Part shown: positions 20,981 to 62,191 of the stretch, piece by piece
Layout: the number at the start of each line of letters is the position of its first letter
How positions within the stretch are numbered: position 1 is the first letter of the stretch
Source: Umbilicaria muhlenbergii
Taxonomy: Eukaryota > Ascomycota > Lecanoromycetes > Umbilicariales > Umbilicariaceae
Length of the DNA: 64,000 nucleotides
Assembly: GCA_000611775.1 (NCBI GenBank)
Contig: KK106981.1
Location: 5,148,927-5,212,926, forward strand
Direction: 5' to 3'
Translations under genes and position numbers: made by a program
Notes under the pieces: model-generated
Seen by the model: only the letters and a program-made list of their open reading frames with translations
Told to the model about the DNA's origin: nothing
Databases searched by the model: none

Positions 20981-22229
20981 ATGCCACTTATTCGCAAACG
21001 TCGAGCAGTAAGTTGTCGCTATCACTGTACTCAACGAGGCTAAAGTTTACACAAACAGCAAGCAGAAGCCTCCCCTCCCGCCTCACCTCCCGCCTCACCT
21101 CCACCAACGCGCCGTCGACGCTCTCCATCGGCGTCTGAGGCGTCTTCAGTTGACGACAATGTAGAAGGCGACACGACGCTAGACGGGGAGACCCAAGATG
21201 GCGGCAGCAGTAGCCATCAGATGGTGAAGAAGCTGGTGCGACTCGCACTAGCCAGCGAGTATGCGCGCCAGCCCATCCGAAGAACAGACATCAGCGCCAA
21301 AGGTAACACGCCGATATTCCCACATCAAACCAGTCTACATGTACCAGGAACTGATGTCTACGACCAGTGCTGGCGCCTCACAATGGCCGCCAATTCAAGG
21401 TCATCTTCAACGAAGCGCAGCAAGAACTGCGGAAAACATTCGGCATGGAAATGACCGAACTGCCCGTCAAAGAAAAAGTCACGATATCTCAAAAACGAGG
21501 TCCGCACTTTCCTTCCCCAAAACCCTCACTTCCCCCCTCCCCCTCCCCTTCTTGAGCTAACACCCCGGCCCCCCCCCTCCAGCCGCCCTACGTGCCCAAT
21601 CCTCCAACCAATCCAGCACATCAAAATCCTACATCCTAACCTCGACGCTCCCCCCGCGCATCCGCGCCCCCCTCCCCCCCGCGCGCATCCCCTCCACCAC
21701 CCTCGAAAGCACCTACACCGCCCTCTACACCTTCGTCATCTCGCTCATCTACCTCTCGTCCGGCCAACTTGCCGAAGGGAAACTGGACCGCTACCTCAAA
21801 CGCTGCAACGCGGGCGAGTACACGCCGCTGGACAAAACGGACAAGTTGCTCAAGCGCATGGAGAAGGAGGGGTATGTGGTGAAGGTTAAGGAGAGGCCGG
21901 CGGGGGAGGAGGAGATGGTGAGTTTTGTTGTGGGACCGAGAGGGAGGGTGGAGGTGGGGGAGAGGGGGGTGGCGGGGGTGGTGAGGGCGGTTTATGGGAA
22001 GGAGGATGCGGAGGGGGAGGAGTTGGAGAGGAGGTTGGAGAGGAGTTTGGGGGTGGGGGTGGGGGTTGGGGGGGTAAAGAGGGTTGGGAGGGAGCAGGAA
22101 GATGATGGGCGGGAAGAAGAAGGAGGGAGGGAGGGAGGAGGGGGGGCCGGTGAGGAACCGGTGGCGAGTAGGGGGCCGGGGAGACCAAGGCGGAGGCAAA
22201 GAGGTGAGGTGGGAGAGGATGATGAGTAG
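20981..22229 (+). CDS. NSE3: NSE3/MAGE-domain subunit of the Smc5-Smc6 complex
   Basis: Exons 20981..21007, 21059..21302, 21368..21499 and 21583..22229 give 349 residues. After MPLIRKRRA and a Pro/Arg/Asp linker comes the MAGE homology domain: HQMVKKLVRLALASEYARQP, IRRTDISAKVL, RQFKVIFNEAQQELRKTFG, MEMTELPVKEKVT, SKSYILTSTLPPRIR, ALYTFVISLIYLSSGQLAEG (the second winged helix) and LDKTDKLLKRMEKEGYVVKV. In the Smc5/6 complex Nse3 pairs with Nse1 and Nse4 and binds DNA. The last 100 residues are Gly/Glu/Arg rich and follow a C-rich to G-rich change of the coding strand near 21850. Convergent with the ankyrin gene. Confidence 0.88.
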
Positions 22230-37012: not shown

Positions 37013-37509
37013 CTCACGTGCTTTCATGAATGATAAGCAAACAATTCTAGCGCATCTGTTCAGCCCCTTCCTGAATCCTAGTCAGTTTCCAGAGAACCAA
37101 TCAAGTAGCGGATACTGTTGGACTTCCAAAAGCCGAGATGTGATCCTTTGTATCTAGTCAACTTTGTGAAAAAGTCGCCCACGCGTGTACAAATGCTTAA
37201 ACACAAAACACGTACCGCATTAAATAGCAGAGACAAGACCATAAGGTAGTCTCATTGCCCGTCAGAGCGCCTAGCCCTTAATTTGAACCGAGTTTTACGA
37301 CGATGTAGGGTCTGATGTGCAAGGATTGTCATTAATATAAGCTTAGTTTTAGTAGGACAAGGATGTACGTGGTCAGGAATCCTCAACTAGAACCAGGTCT
37401 TCTAAAGCAACACGTCTCATATCCGAATCCTGTCTTATCTGCCAACTAACTCTCTATCAAACGCCACCTCTATCCTCCTGCCTCCATCCCCTGCCTCCAT
37501 CCTCACCCC
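37013..37509. other. Convergent intergenic region
   Basis: AT-rich at 37150..37420, then extremely C-rich up to the CoA-transferase stop. No gene recognised. Confidence 0.5.
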
Positions 37510-39704
37510 TCAATCCTCCCCCCCAAACCCCTCCTCCACCTCCCACCCCTCCCACCCCACCCCATCCCACCCATTCGGTCTCGTCCCCCTCGAAAACCCC
37601 ACCCTCACCCCCTCCACCCCAACCGCACTCCTCACAAACCGCACCGTCCCCGCAAACCCCTCACTCCACCCCTCCCCACAATGCCCCCCCCCAAACAACC
37701 CCGGCCTCACCCTCCTCATCGCCCTCAACGCCCTCTTCCCCACCTCATCCACACTATCGCAATGCCTGAGGCCCTCGAACCCCGCAGCCGCGAACTCCTC
37801 TCTCAGCGCCTCGCGCAAGGGCACGGGGTAGAGACCGAGGGACAAGAGGAAGACGTCGTAGCCGACAAGGGAGACGCCGCCCCAGTAGCTGCCGCCGCGG
37901 CGGGCGCGGTGGAAGAGGCCGGTCAGGGCGGCGATGGCGCCCGCGCAGCCGGTGCCGTAGTCGGACATGGGGAAGGGGGGCACGACGGGTTCGGCGAGGC
38001 CCATGCCGGCGACGCCTTGGGCCCAGGCGACGCCGGTGACGCAGTCGGCGATTTGTTGCCAGCCGGGGCGTTGGGTCCAGCTGGAGGGGTTGGAAGGGTT
38101 CCAGTCGTTGGAGTTGCTGGCGGTGTTGGGGTTGTCGGGGTCGGTGCGAGAGGGTGGGAGGGCGCCGAAGCAGGATTCGGAAATGTAGACGATGCCTTTG
38201 TTGCGGGATTGGGCGAGGGCGGTGAGTTGGCGGGGGCCGTAGCCGAGGCGGGTGAGGGCGCCGGGGCGGTAGCCGTCGAGGAGGACGTCGGTGGTGGAGA
38301 GGAGGGAGTCGAATTTTTGGCGATCGCTGAGGTTGTGGAGGTCGAGGTCGAGGGTGTGTTTGCCCATGTTGCTGGGGGAGAGGGGGGGTTAGCTGGGGTG
38401 GTAGTGGTTGGGGACGAGGACGGGTTCGGAGGTGACACCGCGTGTGTAGCTCTTGTGGTTCATGGTGACATGGAAGTCTAAAAGCTCTTCGGGACTTAGG
38501 AATGATGACGCAGGGGTACATGGTAACATAGGAGACAAGGTCGAGGACTTTTGCGGGAACAATGCAGCAAATACAAGACAGGTAACATTGACGGGTGTTG
38601 TCGGTGCTCACGAACATGACGCAATGACTCCCGACGCTTCAGTAGTTGCACTCGAGTACTCACCCGTCAACTTGGAAGAATGGTACGTCACTAAGATAAG
38701 GAGATGTAACTTTGATGACATCTGCTCCGTACTCGGCTAGGGTCCGTCCAATAGCTGGGCCCGCGATGATTCTGCACAACTCCAGCACTCTGATGCCGGC
38801 CAGGGGCTGCGGCTTCTTACCGGAGGACTTGACATCAGGGAACGGGACCGGAGGCGTCTGGTATTCTAGAGCTTCGATGGACCATGGTGGCTTGTCCAGT
38901 ACACTTTGACCCTAAGGCCAATGTTAGTTAGTAACGCTATGTAAATGAGTGGCAAACGCATGTACATATTCTGTTTTCTGGAATTCTTCATATTTCAGAC
39001 ACGTTACACCCGCCTGCCGTTTCTGGGCGTTCATCTCCTCCAATTCGGCGGCGGAGAATTGCTTTACATGGGCTTCGATAAGCTTGATACATTCATGGTA
39101 GTCAGTCATGTCAGGTCGATGGCCTTCCAGGCCGACCATGTTGAGCGCAGTCGTGGCCTCGAGAGATCCGTGCAGGTGGAAGTACTCGCCGGGGTTACGA
39201 GTTTCGTACAAGTTGGCAGACAGACGACGATAGATGATCGATTGGGCCTGCAACAGGTCGGTATCTGTGTGCGTCAATACTGAATGTTACAAGCGTTCGC
39301 TTAGGGTACTGCCTACCCTTCAACTTTGACTTGACGTTCGGGTGTCCCTTGTCCATGCCATCGATGGTGGACAGGTATGCGGCGAAGAGGAAACATGATG
39401 CACGTTCCAAATCCACATCAATCCTTCTCTTCCTCTTGCCGTACCGTATGTCGGCGATGGCGGCTGCAGCTCCAGCTTCTACGGCCTTTAACGCAGACGT
39501 TGCTTCAGTCTCCTTAAATGGGCATGGAAAGTAGACCTTGTTGTCCGCAGGCGAAGAGAAAATCACATCATTCGTGTGAGCTTTGATCTCCGCCGGGATT
39601 TGCTTACTTGCACGGTGCAAGAGAGATTGTAAAGCAGCCTTTGTGCCGGCTTCAAGGGAATATCCCGAGCTCGTACCGTTCTGCTGGGAGTGGTCTGTGG
39701 CCAT
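37510..39704 (-). CDS. CoA-transferase family III (CaiB/BaiF) protein
   Basis: Exons 39317..39704, 38966..39264, 38664..38911 and 37510..38371 give 598 residues in phase. The family signature is in exons 3-4: LAGIRVLELCRIIAGPAIGR, TLAEYGADVIKVTSP, NMGKHTLDLDL, LLDGYRPGALTRLGYG and GIVYISESCFG. The 230-residue N-terminal part (IDVDLERASCFLFAAYLSTI, LYETRNPGEYFHLHGSLEAT, TALNMVGLEGHRPDM) is homologous in style to the second half of the CoA-transferase fold and is present in fungal long forms. These enzymes move CoA between acids or racemise acyl-CoA. Intron 3 is 292 nt, much longer than its neighbours, and may hide an additional exon. The last 100 codons are G-rich on the coding strand. An in-frame ATG 34 codons upstream would give a Ser/Arg-rich, possibly mitochondrial presequence. 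Confidence 0.85.
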
Positions 39705-47379: not shown

Positions 47380-50091
47380 ATGACTCGCCCAAAGGTGGAC
47401 CCCGACAAGAGGCAACGGACTGCGACTGCCTGCGACAGCTGTAAACGTCGAAAGCAAAAGGTTCCCTGGACCCTCTCCCGTCATGCCGATTTGCTTTTCC
47501 TTTGACCCTTCACTGGCTGTGCTGCTGACGACTCAATTCACAGTGCAATGGCGAATCTCCATGCAACACGTGCAGCAAACGGAATTTGAGTTGCTCGTAT
47601 AACCCTAGCGAACAAGGATCTTCAGACGAGCCCTCACCATCCAAGAAGCGGCGGACGCAACACGACCTCTCTGGCGATGATGAGGTCGGCCCCCATGAAA
47701 ATGTTCTTCGTGAGGCCCCGTCGCCGAATCAGGTGTCACCACGGGCGAAGCGAAAGGCTCCCACTCAATGGAATTTCTCGTCGGACGGAAACGACTCTGG
47801 CAGCGCTCCAAGAGGGTTCCCGCTCGAGCATGATGCCGAAACGCCATCCATCGAGAGTGCGGCCAGATCAATCATTCTGTTTCCTCCTGCACCTGAAGCC
47901 AAGCCGGAAGAACAGCTGGCTTCCGGTGCGACTTCAACTAGTGCCCCCGATGAGGAAGCTGATAATCACACACTGACCCGCATGCTCGAGGATCCAACAG
48001 GCAGGCTACGTTAGTCCCCCAATATGACTTCTCTGTGCCCGATCGGTGCCTCCAACCAGCAATGGGCTTGACATGGTGAGGCTGGATGGAGAGCGATGCT
48101 GACGTGTAGTCAGTGTATGTTGGTGATTCGGCGACGCTCTCCTTCCTTCAGCTGATCCGCATGATGGTCGAGACCACCGCCGGTCCATCGCCGTTCACTG
48201 TGGATCCGAGGCGGCATCGTATAATCGAGCAAAGCCTTTCTGTCCCCTCAAATACTAGGCTCACACATCTCCTTCCAGACAGGCAGACTGCTCGCATACT
48301 TATAGAGTCTTTCTTCATAAACGTAAGCAACCCTAGGTTGGCTTGCGCCTTATATTGATAAGCGCTCCTAGACCCATGGCTTGCTCCAAGTCTTTGAAAG
48401 GAAGGCTTTTGAGACTACACTGGAAAGGTGCTATTCAGATCCGCTGAGCGTTGATCCGGCATGGCTGTGCCTCCTCAACCTTGTTTTGGCTATAGGACTA
48501 GTGCTTGCGACGCCTTCGTTAGGAAGCACTGCAGACATCGTGATCAACAAGCTAAGACGGAGCGGCACCGACCGTTCAGAGATATTCTATTTCAATGCCA
48601 AGAGCTACCAAGACCCTATCGTTGGATTTGAAGACGCGGGTTTCTGGTCTATACAGGCCTTGCTCCTGATGGCTGTCTACATGCTTACAGTGTCTAAGAG
48701 GAATACAGCATCTGCATATTTCGGTAGGCATCTTACTTCAGTAATTGCGTCAGTTGCTACAATACTCACAGGATCATCTAGGCATGGCTGTACGCTCGGC
48801 CTTTGCGCTTGGCTTACACCGTCAGGAGGAAACGGCGGTTATCTTTTCACCCGAAGAGCAAGAAATACGACAGAACCTCTTGCGGTCGTTGTATGTCATG
48901 GATCGCTTTATTTCTGCGTCTCTTGGACGGCCAATTGCTATCTCCGAAGACGACTGCTCTGGCGATGCCTTGAATCCGCCGGAAACGCCCCTGTATCCTG
49001 TGCCAGGCGTGTCCGGTCAGATTAACGTCTTGGGTTTAGAAGCCGCCGTCCGCAGCTGCCAAGCCATTGGCATAATCCTCAAAAAAATCTATCAGAAGCG
49101 GAAGATATCTACCAAGTTGGCTCAAGAAATCGCTGATCAGTGTAAAATCTGGCCCAAAGCCCTGTCACCAGCGCTTCACTGGCGCCAGGCTTCACCGAGC
49201 AATCCCAGTCAGGGGATAGCTATCCTTCACGTCAACTTGTTTTATTGTCACTCGATCATTCTTCTCACCAGACCGTTCTTCCTCTATCTTCTTAACGGAG
49301 AGGTGCAGAGAGCGCGAATGGGCACAGGACCCCGTCCACCTCGCGCACAGAGTCGCATCGAGAAATTCAGCGAGGCCTGCGTGTATGCTTCCACGCACAC
49401 AATCGGCCTTGCCCAAAACGCCTTCGAAGGCCGCTACCTCCAGCGCCGCAACCCATTCGTCATGTACTTCCTCTTCGCCGCCGCGCTCATCGTGCTCTCC
49501 AACGAATTCGCCAACCTCTACCACAACGCCACGGCGGACTCCAGCGTCGAGAACTCCATCACAATCTTAAGCTACTGCGCGGAAGCCGACCCGCAAGCCC
49601 AACGTCTCGTGCACATCCTCCTCGCCCTCCGCGACGTCGTCACCAAAAAACAACGCTCGCAGAACCTCCACCCCCCGACCCTGCCCCCTCCTATGCCCAC
49701 ACCCATGACGCAGCTCCCCTTCCCAAACATCACCTCTCCCGCCCGCCCACCCGTCTCGCAACCTTCCCCACTCGGCATCATCACCACCCCACCCCTCATC
49801 GACATTCCTCTCATCCCTCCCCCAACCGCCTTCGACCAACCCCCGCCCCTCGCGCAAACCCGCCACGGCTCATTCTCCTCCCTGCTCGATCTCACCGCCG
49901 GTAATAACCCGCAGGCGGTTCGCTCGTCCGAGGACTCCTCCGCGCCCGACGAGCACATCGATTTCGACGCCCTGTGGCAGTGGCCCGCGCCTACTGCGGT
50001 GGGCACACCGAATGTGTGGGATGTAGGCGTGCAGGGCATTAGCGATAGTACCGTGCCGCTGTTTGGCATGATGGATACGAGGGGGACGTGA
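47380..50091 (+). CDS. Zn2Cys6 transcription factor with fungal-specific middle homology domain
   Basis: Five exons (47380..47460, 47544..48009, 48114..48322, 48372..48723, 48782..50091) give 805 residues. The binuclear zinc cluster is Cys18-x2-Cys21-x6-Cys28-x5-Cys34-x2-Cys37-x6-Cys44 in ACDSCKRRKQK / CNGESPCNTCSKRNLSC, interrupted by intron 1. GRLLYVGDSATLSFLQLIR is the conserved start of the middle homology region, followed by GFWSIQALLLMAVYML and GMAVRSAFALGLHRQEE, NLLRSLYVMDRFISASLGRP. The tail is Pro/Thr rich and ends PLFGMMDTRGT. Intron 1 starts GTTCCC, a weak donor. It converges with the dioxygenase gene, a plausible target. Confidence 0.9.
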
Positions 50092-50734
50092 ATTGCGGGC
50101 CCTAGATTGGGGCGGATGACTGTATTTGTAGGCTGGGAAGCGGCTAGTGGTATTGCTATATTGTTTAATGCATCTGCTCGGTATAGGGTAGACGGACGGC
50201 TTGTAGCTGGACATGGGGCCCGATGGCAGACGCCAAGGCGTGGCGGAGCGCGAGGAAGGAGTTATGGCTTATATAGGCTTTTTGTATCTTTAGATTTATG
50301 ATTGCTAGATACCCCATATTTTTTTGAGACTCGATCCGGTTGGAGCTTTTGGATGAGGTATTTAGAAGAATTTCTATAGTTGGAGCTTTTGAAAGAGGTG
50401 TTCAGAAGAACGTCGATGATGAAATTGATGTCGGGAGCCATAGCTATTACATCAAGCTACTGGTGCAACCCAACAGCTCATGATCATCTGGGAGTTACCT
50501 ACAAGCTGACAGTCCGCTCCTGCACGAGCTCAATCGCAAAGTTGATACCACACAAATGACCCGCTGGATTATGCAGGTTATATGTATATATATATCCAGA
50601 TTATGCAGGCCAGATTATGCAGGCCAGATTATGCAGACCATGTACACTCCCCACAATGCACATCGTCACCGCTATCACGCTAACAAAGCCATCACAGCAA
50701 CCTGCCCAACCCCACACCCACACCCTCGGCCCCT
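50092..50734. other. Convergent intergenic region with a 14-bp tandem repeat
   Basis: 3' flanks of the Zn2Cys6 and dioxygenase genes. The repeat is listed separately. Confidence 0.5.
50596..50637. repeat. 3 x 14-bp tandem repeat
   Basis: Two exact copies and one copy with a final change of CCAGATTATGCAGG. A partial fourth copy (GGATTATGCAGG) lies at about 50566. An alternating TA stretch stands directly before it. Confidence 0.8.
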
Positions 50735-51999
50735 TCACTTCCCATGCTTCAAACCCGCCCCAAAACTCGCACTCTCCTCCGTCGTCCCCTGCACCGAAAA
50801 CTTCCCTGCCTCCTCAAAAGACGCCAGCTTGAAATCATACGGCAACTCGAAATCGGCTTTAGGATCGCCCTTCCGCGGGAGGAAATCGACGACGAGAGAG
50901 TCTTTAACGGCGAAGACGGCGTCGTCGGTGATGTGTTTGTCGCGGCGGTCGAAGATTTGCGTTATGATGGGTTTATAGCTTGGGGCGGAGATCTAGGGAG
51001 AGGTGGGGGGGTAAGTGGGTGACTTTGCAGAGAGAGAGAAAAAGGGGAGGTGGGGGGGTTGGGGGGGTGATGACAGGGGAGTGAGTGATTGATGCGACTG
51101 AGGAGTAAATAAATAGGAGAAGAAGCAAAGGTGTGCGTACGATAAAATGGATATGAGCCGGCCTCATAGGATGTCGATCCAACAACTGCAGTAACTTCCC
51201 TGCCGGCCCGTCGAACGGGATGGGATAACTCGTCGGCCTCAGACAGTAGAACGAGTAGTTCCCATCTTTGCCCGTGGTGAAGCGTCCTCTGAGGTTGTAG
51301 TCCACCTGGTTCTCGTCCTGTTGCTCATATAGCCCGTTCGGCGCCGTATGCCAGACGTCCAGCTCGGCGCCCTCGATCGGCTCGCCCGTCAGGTAATCGG
51401 TCACGCGCCCGTGCATGAAGGTGTGGTCGCCGTCGGGGATGTTGTGAACGATGGAATCGCCCATTTGCCGGTGTGGGGCGTTGGCGCGCCAGAAGGGACC
51501 GAGGATGGCGGTGGAGGTGGGGGCATCGGGGGCGGAGGAGGCCAGTTGATAGGTTATGCTGTCGACGAGGGATTCGAGGCCGAGTATGTCGCACATTAGT
51601 TGGCCTTCGTTGCGGCGGTCGTCGGACATGCGGCCGGCTTGGTTGATCTGGCAGAAAGGAGTTTTAGTGGGTGGGCATGGGTTGGCTCTTGAGGGTTCGG
51701 AGTAGATTCACCATTTCAACACCAGCCATCCACTCGTCCACTGTGAGCTCGTTTTCACGTGCGAAGTCGTGGATGTGCTGGATTAAGCTGTGCACCACTT
51801 GGCGTACTCGTGGTGATGCTTTGGGTCCTGTTGCATTGAGCACGCTCTGGGTGAAATTGGGGTCGAACTTCATGCCTCGGGGGGTGGTCGTCGATGGATT
51901 CTCTGAGGTGCCGCTGGAGTGGCCATTCACGCCATTGATGTTAGCACTGGAGGAGCCCTCCACTGGGGCAAGAGTGAGAGGTTCCTGGAGGTCTGTCAT
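50735..51999 (-). CDS. Intradiol ring-cleavage dioxygenase (catechol / hydroxyquinol 1,2-type)
   Basis: Exons 51712..51999, 51141..51647 and 50735..50992 give 350 residues in phase. The N-terminal dioxygenase domain reads [64 protein letters not shown]. Then [10 protein letters not shown], the beta-barrel [31 protein letters not shown] (first Fe ligand Tyr), [17 protein letters not shown] (second Tyr) and RPAHIHFI (the two His ligands), and [20 protein letters not shown]. These enzymes bind ferric iron and open an aromatic diol ring between the hydroxyls to a muconate, feeding the 3-oxoadipate pathway. No signal peptide, so cytosolic. The 3' 135 bp are G-rich on the coding strand. Confidence 0.92.
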
Positions 52000-52859
52000 T
52001 GCGATTGGGGGACGGTATGACGGAAGGATGTGAAAGGAGGATGTAAGGGAGCGGTGTGAGTTATGGAAGTTAGGGCAAAGGAAGGAAAGAGCAATGGGTG
52101 TATGTAATGTCTAAAGCACCATCATGACATGATCAGGAAGCCTTCCAAAGCTTCATTTGAACCATGTGGAGATGCTTTATCCAACGCTCGACATAGCCGC
52201 TGTCTCGACGTGGGGCCATCATACTGGCGAGAGTAAATGACGTTCGGGTATAGGCTGGGATTTTGCGGGGTTGACCGTCTGCAGTCGCTTTCCGCAGGGC
52301 CGTGGATGAAGCACCTAATCGTGCCCCGCCTACTAATAATCGTTCGCTTATTAGTAGAACGATTATTAGTAGGCGGGGCACGATTAAAGCCGTCCTGCGG
52401 TGGTAAGTCACTGAAGGACTCCAGGGGGCCCCCTGATGCCGTATACACTTGAATCCGGAAGCTACTGAACATGCTGTAGCTAAGTCTTTTGTTTATTAGA
52501 TGAGTAGAGCGGCCCCCAGCAAGGAAATCTTCTCTTGTGCAACACGTTGAGTTGGCTAGGAACCACATTTGTTTGAACGACAGTTGGTGACAACCTAGAT
52601 CTAGTGGGTTTAATACTTTCCAGCACAATCTGAAGAATTGCTTTGTGACGCCAAGTTGTAAACAGTAGCGATTCCTCGGGTATAGCCAGAGATGAGTTTC
52701 GAATGGCTCTACCAGTCGTAGGGCTAGATTTCAAAATCGTTGGAGGCAATCTAAGCGCCGGGTCTTAAGCGGTAAGCGCATAGCTTGACTGAGTGGACCG
52801 ACCTCATCTGCTGCTCTCGAGTGCCATCTCCAGAATTCTGAAACGACTAGTTGCCAGCA
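52000..52859. promoter_or_regulatory. Divergent promoter region carrying a long hairpin
   Basis: 860 bp between the dioxygenase and NDUFS5 starts, with the 71-bp hairpin listed separately. No gene recognised. Confidence 0.5.
52316..52386. repeat. 71-bp hairpin with perfect 30-bp arms
   Basis: Arms 52316..52345 and 52357..52386 are perfect complements (beginning TAATCGTGCCCCGCCTACTA) around an 11-nt loop that contains a further TTATTAGTA match. Flanks continue the symmetry imperfectly (CCGCAGG on the left, CCTGCGG on the right). No coding, no recognised transposon ends or target duplication. Confidence 0.9.
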
Positions 52860-53361
52860 ATGTCTTCGGGATACGGACTCGCCGGTGGTAAGTATCCATC
52901 TTGTCGGTTGAGGAGTATCGGAGGAGAGCTTGACGTAGTTGCTACACTCTAACGTTCCAGAGCTGATTTGAGCTTCTTCAATCCAGGTCCCTCGCGGTGT
53001 TTTCCATTCTGGCAAGAGCTGTTGGCTTGCTACGTCGTCAATACCAGCACCGACGATGTTTCAGGCGCCAAGAAGTGCCTGCCGGTAATGGAGGATTACT
53101 ACGAGTGCTTGCACCACAAGAAAGAGGTGAGCCAGAATTCTCCTGCCTTCCTTGGACCGGCGCATTCGGAGTACTTCGCGGATACATGTTGATGCTCACT
53201 ATCTCGTCTCACAGGCCGCGAGAACGAGAGCTTTACAACAAGCGTATCGAAGGGCAATGACCCAGCACCCTAGAGAGAATGAGCCGAGGGTAGGCACGAT
53301 CAGGAATCTTGGGCTGTTGGACCACGAGGAGGATACGAAGAGTGTGCTGGATTCGAAATAG
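52860..53361 (+). CDS. NDUFS5: Complex I 15-kDa subunit, NDUFS5-like
   Basis: Exons 52860..52887, 52963..53126 and 53215..53361 give 112 residues. MSSGYGLAGADLSFFNPGPS leads to a twin CX9C fold: Cys22-x9-Cys32 (CFPFWQELLAC) and Cys48-x9-Cys58 (CLPVMEDYYEC), then HHKKEAARTRALQQAYRRAM and an acidic tail. This is the CHCH-type accessory subunit of mitochondrial NADH dehydrogenase, oxidised in the intermembrane space by the Mia40 route. The first junction uses the acceptor CCAGAG; the alternative CCAG breaks the frame. Confidence 0.9.
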
Positions 53362-53642
53362 AGTTGGTTCTGATTTGCGTGCAATCAGGCGTTTGGAAGT
53401 ATACTCAGATGGTCTTACAATTTTAGACACAGTGAATGTCTGATGTGTACTCGTATCGAAATTCTGAAACTTCAAGCGCGGAATTGATTGACGAGTTTAC
53501 TTCACCTATGGGATGTGACTCACATTGAGTATAAAGGAGCATTGATTTCTGCACCTCGACTGTGTTCTAGGTTATCACATAATTTCTTAGCGACATCACA
53601 TTATATCAACATTAGTCCGTACACAAAACGAGATCGCCAGTC
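53362..53642. other. Tandem-gene spacer
   Basis: NDUFS5 3' flank and promoter of the BTB gene. Nothing else seen. Confidence 0.5.
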
Positions 53643-54799
53643 ATGGATGCTGACAAGTTCTGCGAGTAAGTCTTGGCCAGACTGCGAACGGTAACCTAAG
53701 CTGACAGGCGTCTAGGCTGCTTACTGGAGACATGGTCGACGTCTATGTTGGACCAGAAGGCCACCACTACCGTCTATCATTGAAGCTCCTATCTCGTCAC
53801 TCCTCCTACTTCGACAGAGCCTTCAACGGTGACTTCAAAGAGGGAGCGACAAAGAGACTGGATTTACTAGATGATGATATCCATGCGTTCAACCTACTTG
53901 TCAAATGGATCTACACTGGGCAAGTCAACACTCCGAAGCGCCATGACACCGCCAAATCTGCAAAAGCCTTTACCGAGGACGATGCGACTGGTACGACCTC
54001 AGTGCCAATACAATCTTCGCACATACGCACGCCATTTGATCTGTTCTCATCATGCAATGTTCCTGTAGCAACAAAGCTGTCTGGCTCGGATGATGGAGCG
54101 GAACAAGAGCTTTGTCCAGTCAACACCGGATCACATCTGAAACTATATGTACTTGCCGACAAACTCGGTATGCCGATGCTCAAGAACCAGACAATCGATG
54201 CCATCATCCGAGCTGGTTACTACACTGAGGGCCCCGACAACGGTATATGGGGCCAAGGACTGCGCACCTCGTCCTACATTCGCTTCCACCCAGAGACGAT
54301 CATCTGGATATATGAGAATACTCTACCAGGTAGTCCGTTACGCAAACTTGCGTCAACGTCAGCAGCTTACTGCATATTACTGAGAAGAGCGAATGTCAGC
54401 CATTATGAGGAGTGTCTGGGCGGAGAATTCGTCATTGACCTTGTCAATGCCATGCAGGAGAACGCAGACAACTCGACTCTCTCGCAAAAACCCATCCTCG
54501 AAGGCCATGGCATCTATCATGACCGCCGGGATGAAGTATGTACGGCCAACGCTGCAGGGGAGATGTCGGGTGTTGATCGACTGCACCAGTTGAGTCCCGC
54601 AGCCAAGTTTGTGTTGGAGGAAATCGAAGATAACTCGGCCCTCGGTTTCCATGTGACTGTGCAGAAGTTAGTAAGCCGGTCGTCGTACGATGTGGTGGAA
54701 GTCAAGAAGGCAGTGGATGAATTGTTGAAAGCTGGATTGATTCCCAATTCGGTCAATGACGATACCGGGGAAATAAGTGGCTTCGTTCCGGTTTTTTAG
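53643..54799 (+). CDS. BTB/POZ domain protein C
   Basis: Exons 53643..53665 and 53716..54799 give 368 residues. This is a clearer BTB domain than the other two: LLTGDMVDVYVGPEGHHYRL, SLKLLSRHSSYFDRAFNGDF, KEGATKRLDLLDDDIHAFNL, LVKWIYTGQ, with a 50-residue insertion before LKLYVLADKLGMPMLKNQTI. The C-terminal 70 residues, KFVLEEIEDNSALGFHVTVQ then YDVVEVKKAVDELLKAGLIP, resemble a small winged-helix such as the RPA2 or Dpb-type C-terminal domain; that part is tentative. Fungal BTB proteins of this short type are mostly of unknown role. Confidence 0.82.
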
Positions 54800-55753
54800 T
54801 TGAGTAGGGGTGGCTCTGTTGTAAGACTTGGGCAGTGTTGCTGATGATATTTCGAGGTACGATCCCATATTCGAGGCCCTTCGACAATAGCTTTGAACAG
54901 CAGACTGACCTGAACGTTGCTAGCACCGTGCGGACCCCTATATCTCCAAGAGGGCGTCCACCAAGTTCCTCGACCTACATCTCTTGATATGAAGAAAGGG
55001 CTCATTGCAGTAATACCTCCGGCTCAATCTCTATATTGAAGTCATCCGCTGGCGGCTGAACTGTTAGCTTGTTTGTAGCTGGTCCTACATGCTTCCAAAG
55101 TAGCGATCCCAGTCATGGTTAAGTAATCTTAAATAAAGCTTTATAGTTGTTAAAACTGGTTGCCAGTCATTGCATGTCTTTACTTCCTGTCTTCTAACTG
55201 TGAGACTTACCACAAGCAATTAAGGTCATCCTTTCGACACAATAGCAATATCTCCCCAGTAGAACCAATCCGCAATGCCTTTAGATGACGCATAACTCCT
55301 GATCATCAATCGCTGTTCACGTTCCTTCAATGACGCCAGACACACCTCTCAGACATAGAGCCGTGCATTCTCTGGTTGTAAGCAAATAACGACTGGAGCC
55401 CAGTCGTACTACTCTAAATCCCGTAATCTCGCGCCCGGCTTCCACATAGACATCTTATCAATGCCACAAAGTCCCCAGATACTATTCTCAAAACCAGCCA
55501 GCCGTTTATCTCAACGGGTATACCCAACCCTAAACGCCCCTTGAATGCCGACACCTAAATAGACGCCATCTCGGCCCCCAAGCACACGCCCCATACGCCC
55601 TCCCCTGTACCCCTCCCTCCAACCCCCCTCATTGTCATCCCTCACTTCCCCCCCCTTTCCATACTACCTTCCCCCTCTATCCTATGTCCCCCTACGCCTC
55701 TCCCTTCCCCCTTGCCCCCTCCCCTCACCCTGTCTCTTATACACATCTTTCCT
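54800..55753. other. Convergent region; C-rich end includes a Tn5 mosaic end
   Basis: BTB gene 3' flank, then AT-balanced sequence, then a very C-rich block from about 55580. The synthetic 19-mer at 55730..55748 is listed separately; sequence continuity around it should be doubted. Confidence 0.6.
55730..55748. other. Exact Tn5 mosaic-end (transposase library adapter) sequence
   Basis: CTGTCTCTTATACACATCT is identical over all 19 bp to the engineered Tn5 mosaic end, a hybrid of the natural IS50 outer and inner ends that is used in tagmentation libraries. A chance match in 64 kb is very unlikely. It lies 5 bp from the MED10 stop, in a C-rich tract where short reads would be few. Confidence 0.95.
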
Positions 55754-56359
55754 TCAGCTGCTTCCCAGCACCATCTCAACCCCTTCCCCCAACCCTCCCA
55801 CCGCCCTCATCTCCCCCGCCAACACATCCCTAAACTGCGCAAACGCCTCGCTCTTCCCCTTCAGCGCCGCATTCCCCCTCTGCGCCAACTCGACAAACTC
55901 GCGCGTGTAGATGTCGGGGTTCCGGCCGTCTTCGACGTATTCGACGATTTCGGGCGGGATCTGCGTGGGCAGGGTGGCGGCGGTGGTGGTCAGGAGGGTT
56001 AGGGAGGTTGTGAGATTGGTTCTGTTGGGGGGGAGGGGGGGTCAGCGGACGGGGGATGTGCAATGGGGGAAAGAGGGATGGGGGAAGTGGGAAGTAGGAA
56101 TGGAGGATGCGGGAAAGGAGGAGGGAGGAAGAAGAAGAAGAAGGGAAGGGCCCATACATCTTCCGAACGAGTTCCTGTTGTGTTTCCGGGCCGAGGTAGC
56201 CGTGGACGGCGGATTGGATCTCGAAGAGAGATTGGATGACGTCTTTGAGGCGGGCTGCGCGCGCGAGGTGTTTAGCGCTGCGGTGGGGTGGTGGAAAGAG
56301 AGCCGGGGTGGGCAGGGGTATATCTTACCGTCAACGGTGTCTAGGGTTACGGGAGCCAT
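55754..56359 (-). CDS. MED10: Mediator subunit 10
   Basis: Exons 56329..56359, 56158..56254 and 55754..56021 give 131 residues. MAPVTLDTVDARLKDVIQSL, FEIQSAVHGYLGPETQQELV, RKITNLTTSLTLL, IPPEIVEYVEDGRNPDIYTR and EFVELAQRGNAALKGKSEAF are the Med10 (Nut2) signature in order. It belongs to the Mediator middle module, linking transcription factors to RNA polymerase II. The C-terminus (VEMVLGSS) lies only 5 bp from the Tn5 mosaic-end copy at 55730..55748, so its last residues could be affected by an assembly error. Confidence 0.92.
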
Positions 56360-56794
56360 TGTTATTTGTGGAGGAGTGCTGGGTTGAGGGGAGGGGTTGT
56401 TTGATTGGGAGATTGGAAGGCGTGGATGGTCGGGTCTAAGTGGTTGAATGGGAAGTTGGATGGGAAGATGTCTGGAAGTGGTTTAGCGCGGGGACGAATA
56501 CTCTCGCTGTTGAAAGGGTTGGCGGTGACCGCGACCTTAACCCTAAGGGAGTGGGAATTGAGTGCTCTACTGGAAAGGCATACTCGGCTCTAGGAATAGC
56601 ATGCATGTCTAGGGCTCTTAAGCACCGTTGAAAGATCCATTAACAAACCCCTAAGTGCTTGTTGAAAGACCGTAACGACTTGTATTCAGTTCTGGATCAT
56701 GACAGAAGTCGTTCTGCACTCAAGGATCCAATATGCAAAACGTTAATATTGGTATCTAGATTTAGTTGAACAATACACACGCCTGTGGTATATC
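56360..56794. other. Intergenic region, same-strand genes
   Basis: MED10 promoter and kinase 3' flank. No feature recognised. Confidence 0.5.
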
Positions 56795-59700
56795 TTACAC
56801 GTCTTTCGTTTTGACACCAGCAGGCCCGCTTTTGTCAATCTCAGTCTCCACCATTTCCAGCCCTGAGAGACTGGGATATCGCTTGCTGAAATCAACCTCC
56901 CAATCGCCGCCCTTGACGTCCGCAGGGTTAGCAAGAGGCGGAAGCGGCTTGTCCGCAACAGAAGTTGGTTTCATAGGTGGTATCTTAGTCGGCTCTCCAC
57001 GTCCGCCAGTGCGTAACGCTTGTGGTTTGGGAGGGGCAGTAGGTCGTGGGATGTGACGTTCGACAGGCGGAGCAGATGCAGAGATAGGCGCGTGAGGCCT
57101 AACCCTCCCGACTGGTAGATCGACAGGTACGGTAGACCTGGCGTTGCCGGTGTCAGGCAGATTGGTCGGGCCGGGCTTCCTCAAGACCTGACGCTGGATA
57201 CCGGAAGGGGATGCAGCTGCGTCCTGGAGTTTGCCGCCCCTGAATTGGCCTTGTGGGTCCGTAAACCGACCATAGCCTTCCGTTTTCGTTGGCGAGGGCG
57301 AGGATCTACCACTTTCATTGAGTAGCGATTGAACTTTGCTCTGTATTGAAGTAGCTCTATTTGTTGGACCGCCTCGTATCCGGCCTCGGATAGTGTCGCC
57401 TCTTTCCGCCACTCTTTGCCGATACTCTGCGGCTGCATTCGCAACACGTTTCTCTTCTTGTGATAAACGCCGACGTTCCAGCTCTCGTCGGACCTCTGGA
57501 GGTACCTCGAGCTCTTCTACAACGTTACCATCGTCGCTCCTGCCGTCCGTTGCTTCTGATCCAGCTATGGGGGTAAGCTCTCTACCACCGCGATCTGGTG
57601 AGGGACTCGGCGTTCGCCACGCGGGAGCACCACTTGTATTTGTTTCGAAGCGACGGAACGCATCCCCAAATCGCCCTGCAAGGAGAGATTTGGTGCCCGA
57701 AAGTGAGATGGACGGCATGCTGGCACGTTTAATGTGCTTGGATGCACTGGTGCTACGTTTCTCCTTTCGCTTTGAAGGATCTTCTTCCTCCATCGAACGC
57801 AGAAAGTCAACGTTGGAATCGATTGGAGTGGGCTCTGCTGCGCCGTCGGAACTGCCAGTATGGGTTGGTGGTAACTTGCCAGCATCGTACGAGGAACGAA
57901 TCAAGTTCTCCCCAGCCTTGCTCCGGGTTGATTCTCGATCGCGCAGAAAGTCGATATTAGATTCAACATAAGCACTAGAAGGCCGGGCTCGGGAGTTTGC
58001 TGACTTGGATCTATTGACTTCAGAATCAAAGTCCAGAACGGATGGCCGGAAGCCTTCCAGCGAAGGACGCGATGAAGCAGGAGACTTGGGAGCTGCTACT
58101 GTAGCAGTCTGAGATTTGGAGCGGTACTCAAGAAGAGCCGGCCGCTTGAGTCCAAGAGCATCGGACCTCAGAGATGCAGCAGCTAGCTGCGAGGCATCGG
58201 AAGCTCTTGGCTGACTTGAAGACCGGTGCTCGGAGGACGGGGGAAAGCGATATATCGGACGAGACGAAACAGATAAGTTGTGAGCAGCCGAAGGAGGTGG
58301 TGATGGAGATGTCATAGTGCCGGTGGAGACCATAGTTGGCTTTTGCGGAGCTGGCTGATATAGTAGAGAAGGTGGAGTCTGAGTCATGGACGGGTCTGGC
58401 TTCCCTCGAGCCGTTGACATGCCAGGGCCACTGGATGTGGGCACGGACTGGGTCTGTACATTCGGGGCCGGCTTCGTCCCTGCTGGTTGAGCGAAAGCCT
58501 CATCTGCCAGTGCTTCCGCGACCCGCTGCGAGATGTCCTTAGGCTGAGTAGTTGACGGTTGGACCTTTTCATCAAAAGCAAACTTGGTGCCGGAGTCATG
58601 GAGCAAAGAGAACTGGTCCAGCGGAGGGAATCGTGCGGCAACTTCATCTACCATTGTAACACCCCGCGTTGGCTCTTGAACGGAGTCCAAAGCGGCGAAT
58701 GGATCACTTGCCACGCCTCTCCTCGGAGAAGGACTTGGCTTTGGGTTGATGTGCTCGGGACTGTGCTTTATAGGACGGCCACGCCTCATTGGCACCACGT
58801 CGGGTACAGAAGGTCTGTCTTCCACAGGAGGGGCTCTGGATACGCCGACCACAAGGGAGGGCATTTCGGGTTCAGGAGAGGGCAAATGTTGGTTTCGACG
58901 AGCTTCTGAATGAGATCGGCCAGCATAGATCTGGATGCATGAGCTGAAGCCCGGGTATATAAGAATGATACTTACGTCCTTGATCGGTATATCCGTCCCG
59001 CGCATAAGACAGACTTCGCGCAAAACCTGATAAATATTGGGCCGTAACTGAGGATTCTCACGCAACATCGAGGCTGTAGGTGTTAGCTGTGATCGCCCAG
59101 AAGTCTGGCTTGTCCGTACCTATCAGCTTTTTGACTCGATCTGAGAAAGCCGGATAACCAGGGAATTTGAAGCTCGCATTGAGTATTGCTGTCTGCCCCA
59201 GCTCCTCGAAAGGGGTAGTATAATAGCAAAGCTTGTAAAGCAGTACTCCTAGTGCCCAGATATCGCTCTTCTCGTCTATAGGTTGTTTACGAAACACGTC
59301 AATCATCTCAGGGCTGCGATATTGTAGCGTGGTGTGTCTCTGGACGTCTTCTTCAATAAGTCTCCCCTCTGCCGCATTTGTAGCCGCAGGCCTGGGAGGT
59401 GCAGTAGATCCAAAATCGCAAAGCTTGTAACGGCGTGACGAGCCCGATGTAGAGATCAGGACATTCTCAACCTTCAGATCTCGGTGCAGTAAAGGGGGTT
59501 TAAGGTAGTGCATGCAAGCAACCCCTTCAGCAACATCAGAGAAGATCTCCAGGATCTCAGGCTCTGTAAGGCGATTTTGCAGTCGAGTATTCATGAAATC
59601 GATGAGTCCCCCGCCGTTGCAATATTCCATCAGTAGGAAGACCTCATAGCCCCCTCCTTTGAGTTGTGAAGCGTGCGAGTCAATGTAGGTGACGATATGC

Positions 59701-60029
59701 CGGTGACCCTTCAGCTTCTTCATAGTCTCCACCTCCGTCCTCATACTCGCCAACGCCTCTTTGTCAGGGACTGCCACCCGCTTGAGGACTGCACCAGCAT
59801 CTCCGTTGATAGCCTTGGGCAATCGGACTAAGTACACATGGGCGAAGCCTCCTTCAGAGAGGTATTTCTCGATGATAACCCTGTGGCCGCCGACTTGGAC
59901 TTTGGTACCTGGGGCAAAAGTACCCACTGGTATGGGCGGGGCGCTGACCGCTGTGGCTGCTGCGTTGTACACTGGTTGTCGGTAAGGGACAGGGGATGCA
60001 GCGAGGCCAGGGTTGAAGGTCGTAGCCAT
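56795..60029 (-). CDS. Ark1/Prk1-family (NAK) serine/threonine kinase
   Basis: Exons 59120..60029, 58976..59073 and 56795..58930 give 1047 residues. The kinase domain (about residues 40-330) has the Gly loop SEGGFAHVYLVRLPKA, the Lys in AVLKRVAVPD, catalytic HRDLKVENVLI, DFGST in place of the usual DFGSA, YRSPEMIDVF and DEKSDIWALGVLLYKLCYYT, TPFEELGQTAILNASFKFPG, then LRENPQLRPNIYQVL. The GGGLIDFMN and YxTPF patterns are typical of the NAK family (yeast Ark1, Prk1, Akl1; animal AAK1, GAK), which phosphorylate endocytic actin-patch proteins. The 700-residue tail is disordered, Pro/Ser rich with several proline motifs (RPTAPPKP) that could bind SH3 proteins, and ends SLSGLEMVETEIDKS. Confidence 0.92.
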
Positions 60030-62191
60030 GGTTGGGGAAGACGACTATGCGCATGCATCAAGGGCAGCGCATACGTGGACTACCTGGCCGCCATTGAAAG
60101 GAGTATTGTAGCCTGGCGCTGCCTGAGAGGAAAGTTGCTCTAGGTGGCTTGAATGTTGATGTCTAGGCAGCTTCACGCCATATGCATCGGCTAGTGACTC
60201 GGCGTCTAGACCGTAACATTCCGCCGCCGCATTACTACACGCGTTCCTTTTGTGATTTTTCTTCCGTTGAGACAGGGCATCTACTCGAAAATCACTAGGA
60301 GCACAGGTGTTTACGTTCACAGTTCGAGACATTCATGGTCCTCAGGATACGGATTCGAGCTGTTGTCCTCCTAGTTGGGGGGGTGGAACAGATGGATATG
60401 AACAAGGCCCTGAGGGACCTCTTTGATGATACGAGTACATCAACATAATCCCAGGAAGCTTGCGAAGCTCTTTTTGGAAGATGCACACTCATGAAGGATA
60501 CTCGAATGCGCTTTACAATCAAAGAGATAAATATGGCGATACAAACATAGAATGCTATCTTGACTACACCTGTGATCGCTTCAATCAAGACTGACAAAGC
60601 CCTACGCTTGCACTCTAGGCTACCACGACTTAATTCTGAGAGCACTGCTAGAACATCCCGACAGTTGATTGGCGGATGATGACCACATGTAATAGAAAGC
60701 TTCCTTCCACTACTAAAGCACAAGGTCCTCCATGATAACATCTCTGCCAACAGCCAAACATAATCCAGCATTCGTGTCCCCATCGTCCCCAGCCTGTCTG
60801 GGTGTTTGGAGACGTTACCGTTGTGTCGTAACATAAAAGGCCAAGTTCATGAGACCTTTGTGGGCAATCCATACCAGTGAATCGTTTGCTCTTCCAGAAT
60901 CGTTCGCCCTTCTAAGATGTACTACTGGAGGCGAGCTGTGAGGGTGTTTGAGAAATAAAATGTTCCTTAGTGGAAAACATTGTTACCACGGCTGCAGGGA
61001 GTATCATCTCCACGACCACACCTCCTTGGATAGTTATAGTTATTCAGAGCGGCAGTGTAGAAGCTTGGCAGTCAAGAAGACAATCTGATGCGAGTAAATT
61101 ACTCCGTAGATGCAAGAGCGGCCCAGCCCGTGGATCAGCTTCACAAGATCGTCCCATGCTCTGTCAAAAGAAGAAGTCGACAGTGATGGGTGTGGAGGAA
61201 ATCAATCGCAGATCTCTGCCCTCCTGGGGGCGACGAGCATAAATTGTGTCTGTCACCACTGGAAAATCACCTCATCAAGCTCCCCGGTAGTTGTGGGAAA
61301 ACATGAGCAGCATTCGTGAATACCTTGGACGAAGGGAGACCAGCGACTAGCTCGATAAGACTAAGCTTCACCTGGATGTCTTGGACACGAACGGTCAACA
61401 GAGCGCCGTTTGTGAATTGTCGGGATTCCGTCGCAGCCGGAGTGGTGTCCGTGCAGTTCGGTTTGCCCGGTCAGGAGGGTGGAGCCGTTGGAGAAGGGAG
61501 GTGAGGTGAGGAGCGTTGCGGTGCCCCTGAGGCCGTGACAGGCAGTCGAGGCTGTCTGATTAGCATTCAGTGCTCAGGTCAGCCTGTCAGGTCTGCCTGA
61601 TGGCTCGACGGCTGTGAGCCTGTCAGGGCCCCAGCTGCAAAAAGCTTGCGGCGCCTTCCCGCTTTGGACCGGTGAAGCGAGCGAATCAGGCCCCGTCTTG
61701 GCAAGGAGCGATGGCAAGGGCGGCATATAAGCAACGCGGGATTTCCTCGATTTCGACTTCTGGGAAAGAGAGCGAGCAAGAGACGTTTCCACGTTCCACG
61801 GTCCAAGTGTCAAGGGATCGCCCACCGCCGCAATCGTTCCTTTTCGCCTGCACGCCCGCCCGCCCGCCAATTCGGTCGTCCTTCTTGTCACTCGTCCCAT
61901 GTTCGTCCACACAAAACACGAAACACGAAACCCGACCTTTCCTATTTCTGTTTCCATCATTTTCCAAGCCCATGTCATTCGCAGGCGTCGCTCATGCGGT
62001 GCTTGCCTACTGAAAAGAAAAGAGTCACCATGATGTTTTGACTTCACTTCGGTGCCGACTATAAATCCAGCGTGTTGCCCGTGTCATCTTAACACTGCAC
62101 CCTCCTTTATCCCCGGGTTCGCTCCTGTGTTCGAAACCATGTGAATAGTGAAGATCGAAGATCGGAGATCTCTCGCAAAGCACAGAACGCT
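60030..62191. promoter_or_regulatory. Long divergent promoter region, kinase / MOT1
   Basis: 2.16 kb between starts, the longest gap without a supported gene. A minus frame at 60295..60834 has one membrane-like segment (IAFYVCIAIFISLIV) but no other support; a minus frame at 61574..62047 is Arg/Ser rich and rejected. A leader intron could lie here. Confidence 0.4.

Follow-up and report, generated by a model that had tools for sequence, protein, structure and literature searches.

How did 19 bases identical to a Tn5 mosaic end come to lie just past MED10, and do they belong to the genome at all? We addressed this question in the 64-kb stretch of DNA that was analyzed as a whole (hereafter, the window) and in the assembly that contains it. 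The 19 bases are most likely a synthetic sequencing-kit tag left in the fungal assembly, that is, a laboratory artifact and not biology.

The minus strand of positions 55730-55748 reads AGATGTGTATAAGAGACAG, with 0 mismatches to the Tn5 mosaic end, and the same 19-mer appears as the mosaic-end oligonucleotide Tn5MErev in PMC4248319. Compared to the outside and inside ends of IS50, it has 3 and 4 differences, respectively. The original prediction had described these bases as the synthetic mosaic end rather than a natural IS50 end, and the exact match together with these differences bears this out. No other mosaic-end match with up to three mismatches was found in the window, and the mean for shuffled sequence was 0.01.

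On the plus strand, the outer CTG end of the tag lies to the left and its inner end faces MED10, the tag reading outward from the left flank. The tag had been placed at the edge of a C-rich tract; it is located, rather, within the tract, since C exceeds G on both sides, by 0.53 per base over the left-hand 160 bases and by 0.39 over the right-hand 160. The focal mosaic end is single, not in a back-to-back form. The window contains no N, and both flanks of the tag look like ordinary genome. Tracts with G or C skew exceeding that at the tag recur in the window, at 1601-1850, 21901-22150, and 37461-37680. The features around the tag are collected in the table.

Table. Features around the focal tag (positions in the window).
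Feature	Position	Strand	Basis
Tn5 mosaic end, 19/19 bases	55730..55748	-	Pattern search and match to Tn5MErev
C-rich tract enclosing the tag	55570..55830	.	94 C and 10 G in 55570-55729; right-hand limit approximate
MED10 3′ part, one open frame	55754..56041	-	Pfam Med10, E 1.6e-26; 56041 is the upper end of the stop-to-stop frame rather than a splice site
Likely MED10 5′ part, split by introns, start codon near 56358	56165..56360	-	Translated frames read by eye; predicted

The MED10 stop codon (55754-55756) is 5 bases away from the tag, and the 3′ frame is unbroken up to it. A Pfam search with the frame at 56042-56332 gave no match. In the wider surroundings of MED10 (48745-60044), there are genes for a protein with a fungal transcription factor domain, an intradiol dioxygenase, a BTB domain protein, and a protein kinase.

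To place the focal tag in context, the whole assembly (34.8 Mb in 7 scaffolds) was searched, with the same pattern read backwards as a control. Seven exact copies were found, on scaffolds C1, C2, and C3, compared to none for the reversed control and to ~0.0002 expected from the base composition of the window (34.79 Mb, both strands). The original prediction that other contigs of the assembly might contain the 19-mer is thus borne out, and the 19-mer looks, as proposed, like kit sequence that entered the assembly. The 16-base core of the mosaic end behaved in the same way (16 exact matches, none reversed). When up to three mismatches were allowed, there were 39 matches: 7 exact, 19 with one mismatch (an N in two of them), 1 with two, and 12 with three. 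Mismatched copies were also located on C4, C5, and C6. Since the control yields 20 matches at this threshold, many of those with two or three mismatches may be due to chance. The exact copies likewise represent fewer than seven independent cases, because four of them belong to one AT-rich repeat (L004-L007) and two to one tandem (L002 and L003, 131 bases apart), the last being the focal copy. A chance genomic match at the focal site, which the ordinary-looking flanks and the absence of N from the window might favor, can nevertheless hardly be credited given the excess of exact copies and the arrangement of the matches at runs of N and in back-to-back pairs.

Of the 39 matches, 12 border on, or are truncated by, a run of N (L014, L016, L019, L020, L022, L024, L025, L026, L030, which is the same place as L067, L072, L075, and L076). 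In all 12, the outer CTG/CAG end joins the sequence, while the inner AGATGT end points toward the N. Contigs extended with reads that pass from genomic DNA into an adapter would be expected to end in this way. Tags do not mark every edge seen: none was found at the edges of the N runs in L002, L043, and L060. We also measured the skew of the 160 bases that adjoin the tag on its outer side in 24 site rows, with two- and three-mismatch rows lacking N left out (L017 and L018 are one place, and L004 stands for four copies). In 15 of the 24, the C-G skew of the attached flank falls within approximately the top 2.5% of overlapping segments of the window; in the other 9, it is not extreme. Skewed tracts and repeats may break short-read contigs and so concentrate gaps, and the adapter-bearing reads that close them, at such places.

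The recurrence of the 19-mer at edges of N runs also bears on the idea that a Tn5-type element, whether engineered or natural, was inserted beside MED10 and persists there whole or as a remnant. An exact transposase recognition end is present, but it is the only one in 64 kb, with no inverted partner. The two 30-base flanks of the tag have no common word of at least 7 bases, and so no 9-bp target duplication. We therefore regard a real insertion as exceedingly improbable.

If the tag comes from a kit, the type of library remains to be considered. Four places hold mosaic ends in back-to-back pairs (C1:5477954, C1:5478085, C2:5258159, and C4:4400141), compared to none for the reversed control. 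The NextClip paper describes the Nextera mate-pair junction adapter and the harm done by unclipped reads. In ordinary Nextera shotgun libraries, a short insert can be read into the adapter, which may then join a contig. Shotgun kits carry the same 19-mer (PMC3906532 and PMC4248319), and in NexteraXT reads the mosaic end is followed by an i5 or i7 tail (PMC3906532). No shotgun Nextera tail follows the focal copy. The surroundings were read for 34 of the 39 matches, all but five of those with three mismatches; 12 continue into N, and the 22 others have no Nextera tail. The i7-side 15-mer has no matches in the whole genome; the i5-side 14-mer has 3, compared to 1 for the reversed pattern, and none of them lies at a tag. 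Nor does shotgun read-through make back-to-back ends. These four places and the lack of a shotgun tail after readable copies make the mate-pair junction adapter the likelier source, and ordinary shotgun read-through is very unlikely. Of the original proposal that adapter read-through had produced the tag, the origin from a kit adapter is kept, with a mate-pair junction adapter favored over plain read-through.

The first two of the back-to-back pairs are separated by 131 bases within a tandem duplication (L002, C1:5477948-5478116), which probably arose when the assembly looped through the palindromic adapter. Carry-over of TruSeq adapters as a further contaminant was also considered and rejected, since the 13-mer tested gave 3 matches and its reverse 2, which is the level of chance.

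Whether the tag joins two strangers or stands in place of other bases was assessed by comparing tagged and untagged copies of the same sequence. The AT-rich repeat carries an exact mosaic end in four copies (L004-L007, at C1:6458291, C1:8773411, C2:2239280, and C3:3509265). In the 250 bases to the left of the tag, the tagged repeat copies L032, L033, and L034 are identical to the untagged copy L035; within the tag, 11 of the 19 positions are different, and the 222 bases to the right contain 3, 4, and 4 differences, respectively. The tagged copy L031 shows 13 left-hand and 2 right-hand differences when compared to L035. As both flanks are in register with the untagged copy, the tag in this family overwrote 19 bases without joining strangers. 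In most of the repeat copies listed, the match begins just past the tag, and in L036 it ends at the tag. A chimeric join, which we had considered for L004-L007, was nevertheless dropped, since both flanks are the same in L035, with 19 other bases between them. A second control is provided by L009, a tag with one mismatch, which has an untagged copy on C4 (L083; 94% over 520 bases). In a gapped alignment of the two, both flanks continue beside ~25 to 26 differing bases, with a one-base indel.

For the focal region, a genome-wide search that skips simple repeats recovered only the region itself. Since adjacency is kept in both controls, in-place replacement would, by analogy, be likelier than a misjoin at the focal site as well. 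The false adjacency suspected in the original prediction, in which the sequence left of 55730 would not truly adjoin MED10, is unlikely; it would place the true downstream neighbor of MED10 elsewhere and make the gene order of the 10.66-Mb scaffold wrong at this point. In that case, sites elsewhere in the assembly where a tag lies in closed sequence would be silent misjoins too. Exact in-register replacement is not expected from simple adapter read-through or from insertion.

Overall, we consider the focal 19 bases to be half of a Nextera mate-pair junction adapter, derived from unclipped reads that were used in contig extension or gap closure, and we put the probability of this explanation at roughly 0.92. 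In the proposed sequence of events, the transposase would add the 19-base mosaic end to both ends of long fragments, and circularization would join the two mosaic ends, so that reads could pass from genomic DNA into the adapter. Unclipped reads of this kind may have extended contig ends into difficult tracts with strong C or G skew or into repeats. A tag would be left bordering a run of N wherever extension stopped; where the gap was closed, or the consensus was built from unclipped reads, it would be kept inside the sequence, as at the focal site. Judging by its orientation, the focal tag would come from reads entering from the left flank. Because the focal copy is single and the window is free of N, a former gap at this place is presumed rather than seen. 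The type of library, a gap-closing or consensus step, and the same event at the focal site are our inferences from the patterns across the assembly.

As an artifact, the tag is ordinary, and it matters for data quality alone. The last codons of MED10, being near the tag, may have been filled by the same tag-bearing reads, and re-sequencing of the 3′ end of MED10 and of the region downstream is advised before either is used. Because 19 kit bases stand for others, differences between tagged and untagged repeat copies should not be taken as biology. The 19-mer, with its N-adjoining and back-to-back forms, also provides a quick list of suspect places in the assembly.

Three known systems share this end or a related one. 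The outside and inside ends of IS50/Tn5 are related 19-base ends that differ at 3 and 4 positions, and the focal site has neither an element nor a target duplication. The Nextera shotgun adapter begins with the same 19-mer, but none of the copies readable here goes on into its i5 or i7 tail. The Nextera mate-pair junction adapter consists of two joined Tn5 mosaic ends; its exact 19-mer is present at the focal site as a single half of the double mosaic end, and the back-to-back form is present at four other places in the assembly.
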